This document shows positions 52,345 through 56,019 of a stretch of 64,000 nucleotides of DNA, one piece after another. Source of the stretch: Egibacter rhizosphaerae (GTDB lineage Bacteria; Actinomycetota; Nitriliruptoria; Euzebyales; Egibacteraceae); the NCBI RefSeq assembly GCF_004322855.1, contig NZ_CP036402.1:3286001-3350000 (forward strand). The letters are read 5' to 3'. The notes beneath the pieces were generated by a model. The model worked only from the letters and a program-made list of their open reading frames with translations. It did no database searches and was not told the origin of the DNA. Each line of letters starts with the position of its first letter. Within the stretch, counting starts at the first letter, position 1. The position numbers and the translations under genes were made by a program.

Positions 52345-52512
52345 ATGCCGACACGCCCCTCCGTCGCCACCTCCTCCCCGATGCCGCGGCGCCTTGCCCT
52401 GCTCGCTGCGTGTGGTGCCGCAGCGCTGCTCCTGGTCACCGCCGCGACGTACGCTGTGAACGCCTCCGGGGTCGACCTCGCCCGCGCCTTGCCCGCGGAC
52501 GAGGTCCCGTAG
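52345..52512 (+). CDS. 55-aa single-span membrane peptide
   Basis: A short gene with a strong ribosome site AGGAGG (52330-52335), 9 bp before the ATG. The product MPTRPSVATSSPMPRRLALL ... ALPADEVP has one hydrophobic helix (~residues 16-37: LALLAACGAAALLLVTAATYAV) after a positively charged start, so it may be a signal-anchored or secreted peptide. It ends 15 bp before the ATG of the giant surface protein and may be its leader or partner. No family is recognised. Confidence 0.5.
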   Translation: MPTRPSVATSSPMPRRLALLAACGAAALLLVTAATYAVNASGVDLARALPADEVP

Positions 52513-52527
52513 CATGCGGGTGTCCTG

Positions 52528-55500
52528 ATGGCGGGCGCGGATCGGCGGGATTGGGGCGCCGCGGGTGGTGGGAGGCCACGGGTGCTGCTGCTCGCCGTGC
52601 TCGTCGCGGCGGTGGTTGGATGGGTGGCGAGCACCACTGCCACGACCGCTGCGGCCGACGAGGGCGGCTTCGACACGTTGGACGCGCCCGCCTCCCCCGT
52701 GCCGGTCGAGGTCGTCACCGACGCGGCGGTGACCGACGTGAACGCCGGCACCGTGTGGGCCGTTGCGGCGGGCGGCGCGGTCGTCGCCGAAGCAAGCGTC
52801 GACACCGACGGCGAGGCCTTGCTCGAGCTCAGCGACGTCGCGGCGGAGACGGTTGCCGTCCACGCGCACACCCAGCACGGCGACGGCGCGACCGCGCAGC
52901 GCGAGGTGGGGGGCCTGTCGTCCGACGAGCCGATCGAGGTCGCGGTGCAGCCCGACCTCGCCGGCGACCTCGACGGCGAGCCCGACGACCTCGCCGCGGC
53001 CGAGGTCCGCGGCTACGACGCCACCGCCCAGCAGGTCGACGACGGCCTCGCCGACCTGTCCCACGCCGCGGAGGGCGAGGTCGACGGCGACGGGCGCTGG
53101 GCGCTGCACCGCTTCAACGGGACCGCGCAGGATCCCGGCGACCGACCCGGACCGATCGGCCGGGTCGCGCTCGTCGCCGACGCGCTGCTCCCGCAGGCGG
53201 CGCCCGCCGCCGACGCGGACCGACTTGCCGCCCGCCCCGCCCGCCCGCTGACGGCGCAGGCGCTGCTGCCCACCGCGAGCACCGTGGACGCGATCGACGT
53301 CGCGCTCCTCGCCGCGCCCGACGACGTCGCGGGCCTCACCGTCGCGCCGAACCCCCTCGACTGGATGGCGCCGCCGGCCCTCGACGACCTCGCCGGGACC
53401 GCGACCCCCGCGCTCGACGGGCTGCTCGCCAGCCCCGACGCCGGGCCTCCGCCGCTGCTCGACGCCGCGGCCGCCCACGCGCGCATCAGTGGGGACGGGG
53501 ACGCCAGCGTGCTCGACCTTCCCGCCGACGATCCGTTCACCGTCGTCGCCGTCGAGGTCCGCGACGACGAGGGCGCTCCACTGGCCGGTGCGGAGGCCGA
53601 GCTGACGCTCGACCCTGACAGCGGCGGCGCGGTCGAGGTCGACCTGGTGCCCACCGGTGCCGACGGCCTCGCCCTCGGCGGTGTGGCGCACCCCCTCGGC
53701 GGGAGCGGCGACCTCGCGCTCACCGTCGCGGCCGACCACCCTGACCACGAGCCGGCCGAGCAGGAGCGCACCGTCCAGCTCGACTTTCGTCCTCTGACCA
53801 CCGATGACGCCCTGACCATTGCGCTTGGGGCGGCCGAGGACGACCCGTCCGACCCGGAGCCCGAGCCTGACCCGGAGCCCGATCCGGAGCCGGAGCCCGA
53901 TCCGGAGCCCGAGCCGGAGCCGGAGCCGGAGCCGGAGCCGGAGCCCGAGCCGGAGCCGGAGCCCGAGCCGGGATCGGTGGCCGTGACCGTCGTCGACCCG
54001 GGCGGCGATCCGGTCAGGGACGCCGCGATCGCGCTGCGCGACGCGGACGGCGAGCAGACCGCCCAGACGCACACCGACCCGACCGGGGAGGCCACGTTCG
54101 ACGAGGTCGCGGCGGGCGAGGCGACCCTCGCGGTCACCGCCGACGGCTACGCGCCGGCCGAGGAGGCCGTGGAGCTCGAGCCGGCCGGGGCGGCCACCGT
54201 CGAGCTCGCCCTCGAGCCAAGCGACGTGCCGCTGCAGGTCGCGGTCGCCGATGCGGACGGCGACCCGGTGGAGGGCGCGACGGTCACCGCGCGCCCGGCC
54301 GGCCTCGCGCCGGCCGCGCTGCGACCGCTCGTCACCGACACCGCCGAGCGCACGACCGACCCCGACGGGATCGCGGACTTCGGCGCGGTGGCGCCGGGCG
54401 CCTACGACCTTGCGGTCACCGCCGACGACTTCGCCACGCACCGCGAGACGCTCCCCATCGCGGTCGGCGACGCAGAGGCCGCCCCCGCGGTGGCGCTGGA
54501 GACCGACGAGCCCCCCGAGGAGGAGCCCCCGGGCGACGAGAACGACGCACCGGGGGACGAGCCGGGCGACGAGGACGCCCCGGACGCCCCGGACGCGCCG
54601 TCCGCGCAGCCGCCCACCGACACCGAGGGGACGCCGGCGGGGGACGGCGCGGCGCCCTCCGGCACCGGTGAGCCCGCAGGGCCGGCCACCGGCGCGGGGG
54701 CGGCGTCGGACCCGGCCCCGACGGCTGCCGGGGCCACTGGCGGCGAGGGCAGTGCGGACAGCGCTGGCGGGACCGAACCCACTGGCGAGGACGACGACCT
54801 CCCGGCGTCCGAGGGCGAGGCAGACGACGGCGGGGACGCCGGCGACGAGACCCAGCCGCGCGACGAGCGCGAGCGCAGCGTCGCCCGCGCCGAGCCACCG
54901 TCCGACCGCGCCCCCGACGGCCCGTCCGAGGTACCAGGCGCCGCCGACGCGCCAGCGACGGTGGAGCAGCCCGCCGCCGGCGAGCGGGTCGACGTCGACC
55001 GGCTCGACTGGCGGACGGTCGGCAACTTCGGCGCGCACGTGCCCACGTTCGGCGACGGGCCGCTGCGCACCGACCGGGCGACGACGAACGCGCTGCTTGC
55101 GGGCCTGCTGACGTTGCTGCTGATCCTGCCGGCCGAGCTCGCGAATGCGACGCTGCGGGAGAACTACGACCGCATCCTCGCGCGGGCCGGGCGGGCGCGG
55201 CAGCGAGCGCAGGCCGGGTTGGAGGCGCTCGCGACGCGGGTGCCGCACGCCCGGCTCGTGGGCGGGACGCTGTTCACCCTCGCGGTGGCGGTCGCGGCGA
55301 GCGCGCTGGACCCCGCGTTCGGGGTCGGCGCGGGGTCGCTGCGGCTCATGGGGGCACAGGCGATCGGGCTCGTGGTGACCACGTACGCGGTGAGCGGGAT
55401 CGCGTTGCTGCTCGCCGGCCGGGCGGGGGTGCCCGGGCGGCTGCGGTTCCGGCCGGCCTCGTTGGCGCTCGTCGTGGCGATCGTGCTGGTGTCCCGCGCG

Positions 55501-56019
55501 GTCGACCTGTCGCCGGGGTTCCTCTACGGGTTCGTCGCGAGCGCGGTGTTCCACCGCGAGCTCGCGGTGCGCCAGCTCGGGCGGATCACCCTCGTCCAGG
55601 GGGTGTTCATGCTCGGCGTGGGGGTGGTCGCGTGGCTGCTGCTCGACCCCGCGCAGACCGCTGCGCAGGCCGGCGGGTTCGCCGCCGCGCTGCTGGCCGA
55701 GGCGCTGACCGCGATCTCGATCGGGATGCTCACCAGCCTCGTGCTCGCGTTCATCCCCCTGACCTACACCTTCGGCGAGCGGCTGTTCGCCTGGCACCGC
55801 GGCGCGTGGGCGGGGTTGTACGCGGCGGCGCTGCTCGCGTTCCTGTCGATCGCGGCCAACCCGGTGTTCGGGACGTTGTCGGCCGCGCGGTCGCTGGGGG
55901 TCGCGGTCAGCGCGTACCTGCTGTTCGGGTTGGCGTCGCTGGCGTTCTGGGCCTACTTTCGCCGGACCGACCCGCGCGAGGCCCGCGAGCGGCTCACCGC
56001 CGCTGACCACGCCCGGTAG
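52528..56019 (+). CDS. Giant surface protein: Ig-like modules, EP spacer and multi-span membrane domain
   Basis: 1163 aa. N-terminal membrane segment (~19-41) or signal. Residues ~50-440 are Asp/Ala-rich beta regions without a named domain. A Pro-Glu/Pro-Asp spacer covers ~443-482. Two carboxypeptidase-regulatory-like (CarboxypepD_reg) modules follow at ~483-565 ([20 protein letters not shown]) and ~568-660 ([20 protein letters not shown]). A disordered acidic Gly/Pro linker covers ~660-835. From ~853 there are about eight transmembrane helices, with [13 protein letters not shown] conserved in one of them. Fusion of an extracellular Ig-like region to a polytopic domain suggests a surface sensor or exporter linked to envelope assembly. 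Function is unknown; the small membrane peptide lies upstream. Confidence 0.78.
53853..53973. repeat. Pro-Glu/Pro-Asp dipeptide repeat tract
   Basis: About 20 six-base units (GAGCCG/GAGCCC/GATCCG) encode a rigid, acidic spacer in the giant protein, comparable to EP spacers that carry domains across cell walls. Confidence 0.8.

Follow-up and report, generated by a model that had tools for sequence, protein, structure and literature searches.

A putative divergent member of the FGLLP-motif membrane protein family with a large predicted outside arm in Egibacter rhizosphaerae

The peptide frame, the large gene and their neighbourhood

We analysed a 64,000-nucleotide stretch (the window) of the genome of Egibacter rhizosphaerae, which consists of a single contig of 4.64 Mb. 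At the locus, a short frame for a single-span peptide of 55 aa precedes a gene for a membrane protein of 1163 aa, and a regulator gene follows. An earlier note had described the peptide, its strong ribosome site and its position 15 bp before the large gene; the coordinates and lengths of both frames proved exact, and the AGGAGG site is present. The features are listed in Table 1.

Table 1. Features of the locus, in window positions
Feature	Position	Strand	Basis
55-aa single-span peptide ORF (leader or small membrane peptide)	52345..52512	+	ORF, AGGAGG, hydropathy
1163-aa FGLLP-family membrane protein, large N-terminal outside arm (predicted)	52528..56019	+	ORF, NCBIfam, Pfam, hydropathy
Signal peptide or signal anchor, residues 19-37	52582..52638	+	hydropathy only
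Acidic arm, residues 46-440, no family named	52663..53847	+	Pfam, composition, low-confidence model with some strands
EP/DP rod, residues about 441-481	53848..53970	+	read from translation; low-complexity matches there
CarboxypepD_reg / Ig-like modules, residues 483 to about 635	53974..54432	+	Pfam PF13620, PF02369, PF17789
Acidic low-complexity linker, residues about 657-825	54496..55002	+	read from translation, composition
FGLLP (cola_mem) membrane domain, eight hydrophobic segments and a short PGFLYGF stretch	55003..56016	+	NF041501, alignment, hydropathy
TetR-family regulator	56047..56685	+	27 bp downstream of large gene; Pfam/NCBIfam

The AGGAGG lies 9 nt upstream of the peptide ATG. Across both strands of the window, an AGGAGG 5-19 nt upstream was found for 2 of 66 mechanically called, ATG-started ORFs of 50-80 aa, and the peptide should be one of these two. 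Its position-3 GC (0.88) falls within the range of the genes chosen for comparison, and hydropathy gives it a single hydrophobic segment, at residues 17-35. The large ORF, read from the sequence, has no strong ribosome site at its own start, just a weak one.

To place the peptide among relatives, we searched homologous loci and related genomes. No comparable peptide was seen upstream of the FGLLP genes at the two same-family homologous loci inspected (L013 and L014). A tblastn search of loci L001-L067 at a lax cut-off of 10 returned, besides the peptide's own copy, nothing above chance level (best E 0.010). The search of 61 genomes, comprising the host and 60 related genomes from outside its genus, gave the own copy and four weak matches (E 0.002 to 0.008), none of them convincing. 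These four lie within longer frames of 870, 451, 583 and 140 aa in genomes G031, G033, G054 and G046, respectively, none of which gave a match in the FGLLP search of close relatives. The earlier note had proposed the peptide and the large protein as a possible two-gene device for envelope export or sensing, and had named lack of conservation of the peptide as telling against it. Since the peptide has no convincing match in the 60 related genomes, all from other genera, it appears not to be conserved among them, and the pair does not look like a conserved device. We favour reading the peptide as a leader ORF or a lineage-specific small protein; it looks local to the host lineage.

Downstream, the TetR gene is possibly co-transcribed with the large gene; no TetR gene was seen by eye in the gene list after the closest homologue, L014. 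When the gene neighbourhoods of ten homologues and of the window were compared all against all, no general common partner emerged; the cross-matches were isolated pairs, such as ABC ATPases. The exception is a Bestrophin-like (PF14023) gene that adjoins both FGLLP paralogues of genome G174 (L019 and L020) and was not recognised at the other loci, either in the comparison or by eye. Loci L068-L071 were inspected by eye only, and L017 and L016 lie on contigs of 3.8 kb and 8.9 kb. A scan of positions 51740-56900 for sigma-70-like promoters or terminators found none, which is a weak test in a high-GC organism.

The wider window holds several further features. Forward-strand genes for an amidohydrolase, an ABC permease and an NMT1-type binding protein (47157-51742) apparently form an uptake operon that ends before the peptide. 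On the reverse strand, a 592-aa frame (43315-45093) resembles an insertion-sequence transposase by eye. The sole Rfam match is a c-di-GMP-I-GGC riboswitch aptamer far upstream (5729-5814, forward strand; 67.1 bits, above the gathering score). Beyond the regulator, the forward strand encodes a 637-aa polytopic protein (56833-58746) that is O-antigen-ligase-like by eye and has a weak C-terminal TPR-like match under the cut-off. It is followed by a surface protein (58880-60757, forward) with three CW_binding_2 and two NPCBM stretches, the NPCBM copies being near-identical by eye, and by a surface protein that is CW_binding_2-like by eye (61223-62911, reverse).

We also looked for links to mobile elements and defence. 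Two tblastn queries against 72,556 plasmid records gave no match, three scans of a viral contig collection found no relative, and PHROGs gave no match. The PADLOC anti-phage defence models matched none of the peptide, the large protein and a third protein (P0003) at E values up to 0.01.

Layout of the large protein and its family

Hydropathy analysis of the large protein shows one segment at residues 19-37 and then eight segments between residues 854 and 1140. The stretch between them is strongly acidic: residues 46-825 contain 22.6% D+E, 3.3% K+R and no Cys. Within it, CarboxypepD_reg (PF13620) is above the Pfam cut-off with two stretches, the best of them 483-563 at 82.4 bits; Big_1 (PF02369; 40.6 bits, two stretches) and SpaA are above theirs too. 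MG4 (PF17789) at 569-618 is barely above its cut-off, and an Ig_DR_A0283-like match at 569-635 is barely below. Family names thus back two prealbumin/Ig-like modules. The large outside arm with Ig-like modules and an EP rod, joined to a polytopic domain, that the earlier note had claimed is accordingly borne out at the level of predicted features. Signal peptide and topology were assigned from hydropathy alone, and in this reading the loop charges are compatible with an N-out, C-in orientation provided that the short PGFLYGF stretch forms a ninth pass. The arm would then lie outside and the C-terminus inside.

Residues 46-440 match no Pfam family, and a single-sequence model of this region shows some strands at a mean pLDDT of 38.5, too poor for a fold search. 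Against solved structures, the arm matched a single chain, AcfD (E 6.3e-9), and this match is located on the EP rod. Among S-layer and adhesin models of NCBIfam, Kustd1514 scored 47.5 bits (cut-off 1400) and ClfB 28.8 bits (cut-off 999); all NCBIfam matches other than NF041501 (S-layer, ClfB, SslE, TonB and others) are far below their cut-offs, and most of them cover the rod and common modules. The Kustd1514 and ClfB matches are not evidence for adhesion, because they lie far below cut-off and fall on the rod and common modules.

The membrane domain matches the NCBIfam family NF041501, 'FGLLP motif-containing membrane protein', over residues 839-1141 and nearly the whole profile (3-312 of 312; E 9.7e-42). 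The score, 143 bits for the whole protein and 147.8 in the genome search, is just short of the curated cut-off of 150. Same-family relatives in genomes G001 (151.2 bits) and G015 (154.9 bits) exceed it. Because the match is a near miss and a relative 66% identical over 316 aa is above the cut-off, we read the window protein as a divergent member of the family. The FGLLP/LDG stretch near the last helices is probably the name-giving motif of NF041501; in the window protein it is altered, with the G kept, FGLL and D lost, and F in place of the usual D, so that it reads TFG.

An alignment of 11 sequences shows seven invariant positions in the domain, P151, S164, P171, W211, P252, G258 and F280 (window-domain numbering). 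These residues are P, S, W, G and F; none is charged, which speaks against a catalytic or ion-coupled site of the classic type. At the threshold used, all 11 members show an N-terminal hydrophobic segment followed by seven to nine segments in the domain. Homologues share the layout of an arm at the N-terminal end and helices at the C-terminal end. Pfam gave no significant family over the membrane part of the window protein or of the 11 members, and the family profile against PDB sequences returned just two designed proteins (E about 0.1). The earlier note had allowed that the domain might turn out to match a common transporter; NCBIfam, Pfam and the PDB sequences gave no such match. Structure prediction, which it had proposed, did yield a model of the membrane domain (from the window domain and L005) with long helices, at a mean pLDDT of 45.9 that is too poor for a fold search. 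Its description of the device as unknown holds in part: the membrane domain belongs to a catalogued family, and the family name gives no function. No paper on NF041501 or the FGLLP family was found in an open-licence library, a collection outside which most subscription papers and preprints fall. The window protein is thus a new member of a named family that is apparently unstudied as far as we found.

The family is sparse in the phylum sample. With the host genome included, members occur in 3 of 61 close relatives and in at least 9 of 396 genomes sampled across the phylum. Members were also found in at least 4 of 199 genomes in the genus of G178 and in 3 of 8 genomes in one order. Up to five candidates were scored per genome in the 396-genome set and up to ten in the 199-genome set, and the counts may therefore be low. 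One of the family hits comes from Streptomyces sabulosicollis (L005).

The nearest relative, L014, comes from another genus of the same family; at 1162 aa, with the 66% identity given above in the domain, it has an arm plan like that of the window protein, with three CarboxypepD_reg stretches. Elsewhere the arms differ. L021 carries BspA-type leucine-rich repeats and Flg_new and L019 carries Calx-beta, all over Pfam cut-offs, while DUF6923 repeats in L015 and NPCBM_assoc/MG2 in L069 are under the cut-off. No arm family was seen in 5 of the 10 members scanned (four without any family, one with a match in the membrane part). The base is thus kept across the family while the outside arm varies.

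Two members have unusual layouts. The frame of L015 (8214-12320 in genome G230; 1368 aa) has the FGLLP domain in mid-frame with a further C-terminal part, and also a weak HEAT_2 match under the cut-off. In the FGLLP gene of L071 (7477-10896 in genome G473), the membrane domain is interrupted by a long insert rich in proline and glycine.

Possible roles of the large protein

We regard a cell-surface adhesin or recognition protein, in which the arm is mounted on a multi-helix anchor, as having about an even chance of being the correct reading. The arm would be exported by the general secretory route, would reach out across the wall by means of the EP rod and acidic linker, and would bind a surface, a polymer or a partner. 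The eight- or nine-pass domain would anchor it. As the domain is kept across the family while the arms differ, it probably also does a common job, such as holding a partner or relaying the bound state. The 55-aa peptide would most likely act as a translated leader: ribosomes recruited at its strong site would go on to translate the large gene, which has a weak site at its own start. In favour of this reading are the whole-profile NF041501 match, the shared plan of L014, the differing arms and the acidic, Cys-free arm. On the other side, eight or nine helices far exceed the need of a plain anchor, which hints at an extra activity, and a gene with no common neighbours gives no pathway context.

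As a rival reading, the protein might be a sensor. Here the arm would bind a ligand and, much as in 7TMR-DISM receptors, the membrane domain would relay the signal to a separate partner inside, with the TetR gene as a possible output. The combination of differing arms with a kept membrane domain would suit this, as would a TetR gene directly after the large gene on the same strand. However, the Pfam search of the window protein gave neither a 7TMR domain nor a module for cytoplasmic signalling at E values up to 1. The lack of a following TetR gene at L014 also counts against it, as does the fact that TetR regulators normally bind small cytosolic ligands. We consider a sensor unlikely. A transporter or exporter, with the arm as a cell-wall or substrate-gathering attachment, seems to us rather unlikely as well: eight or nine hydrophobic segments and conserved Pro/Gly motifs would fit, but no significant transporter family was matched by the window protein in NCBIfam or Pfam, or by the family profile among PDB sequences. 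Pfam matches across the 11 members were scattered, each confined to a single member and including ABC2_membrane_5 at E 0.11, and the uncharged invariant residues speak against transport too.

Another candidate reading is that the membrane domain arose from a site-2 (M50) intramembrane protease, has lost the zinc site and today acts as a pseudo-protease platform. We examined it through the motifs, using HExxH and the extended LDG motif as the available text of PMC9672952 gives them. Most FGLLP members have a P-x4-[D/E]-G motif (for example FGLLPLRFLDG), spaced as the P and LDG of M50 proteins; its acidic position is D in 8, E in 2 and N, H and F in one each of 13 members. Both conserved motifs lie at predicted cytoplasmic helix ends in the hydropathy reading, and one of the 11 members touched Pfam Peptidase_M50 (E 0.24). 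In two profile comparisons with M50 sets of 9 and 15 rows from relatives, the LDG stretches aligned with each other, but the probabilities were 2.6% and 2.0%, values that stand beside no unrelated membrane family as control. These comparisons set 13 FGLLP rows against pattern-made sets, of which the 15-row set is mixed and retains L041 and L046, which look like wrong frames; L035 (no pattern match) and L036/L037, a single gene carrying a proline-rich insert, were left out of the 13. Against such descent, HExxH occurs in 0 of 13 domains, the window's included, the asparagine of the extended motif is missing in 13 of 13, and the window protein itself, with its TFG, has no LDG. This origin is therefore improbable.

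A membrane or target-recognition part of a contractile injection system (eCIS) was also considered, since in G174 one FGLLP copy has a Pvc16 gene at a distance of about 5 kb and an eCIS_core gene at about 8 kb. However, the window genome has neither a sheath match (PF04984) nor a Pvc16 match (PF14065), which largely refutes the idea for the window. Pvc16 occurs in 2 of 9 FGLLP genomes versus 28 of 396 overall, and the second of these, G145, has it at a distance of about 54 kb within the same contig and a further time on a different one. For the window protein an eCIS role is not supported, and we judge it extremely improbable.

Taken alone, the find in the window is of a fairly ordinary sort, a family member that has diverged and bears Ig-like arms, with an apparently lineage-specific peptide ahead of it. 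An eight- or nine-helix domain kept across distant genera with differing arms gives a good handle on what the base does. One speculative reading, which we hold to be quite improbable, is that FGLLP domains are degenerate intramembrane-protease-like platforms with exchangeable recognition arms, which would regulate a partner membrane protein upon arm binding. If true, actinobacteria would have a modular surface receptor of a new kind.

Three known systems bear comparison. CisA, brought in on account of the eCIS genes near one G174 copy, is likewise an actinobacterial membrane protein, but the descriptions available give it a single pass and a cytoplasmic N-terminus, and the window genome has neither of the two eCIS markers searched. 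As far as the available text of PMC9672952 goes, site-2 proteases differ from the FGLLP members, which have no HExxH, no extended-motif asparagine and no significant profile match, while sharing the P-x4-DG spacing with most of the 13. The 7TMR-DISM receptors, in the text available from PMC6107284, carry cytoplasmic signalling modules, of which none was found in the window protein, yet they resemble it in fusing an outside ligand-type domain to about seven helices.
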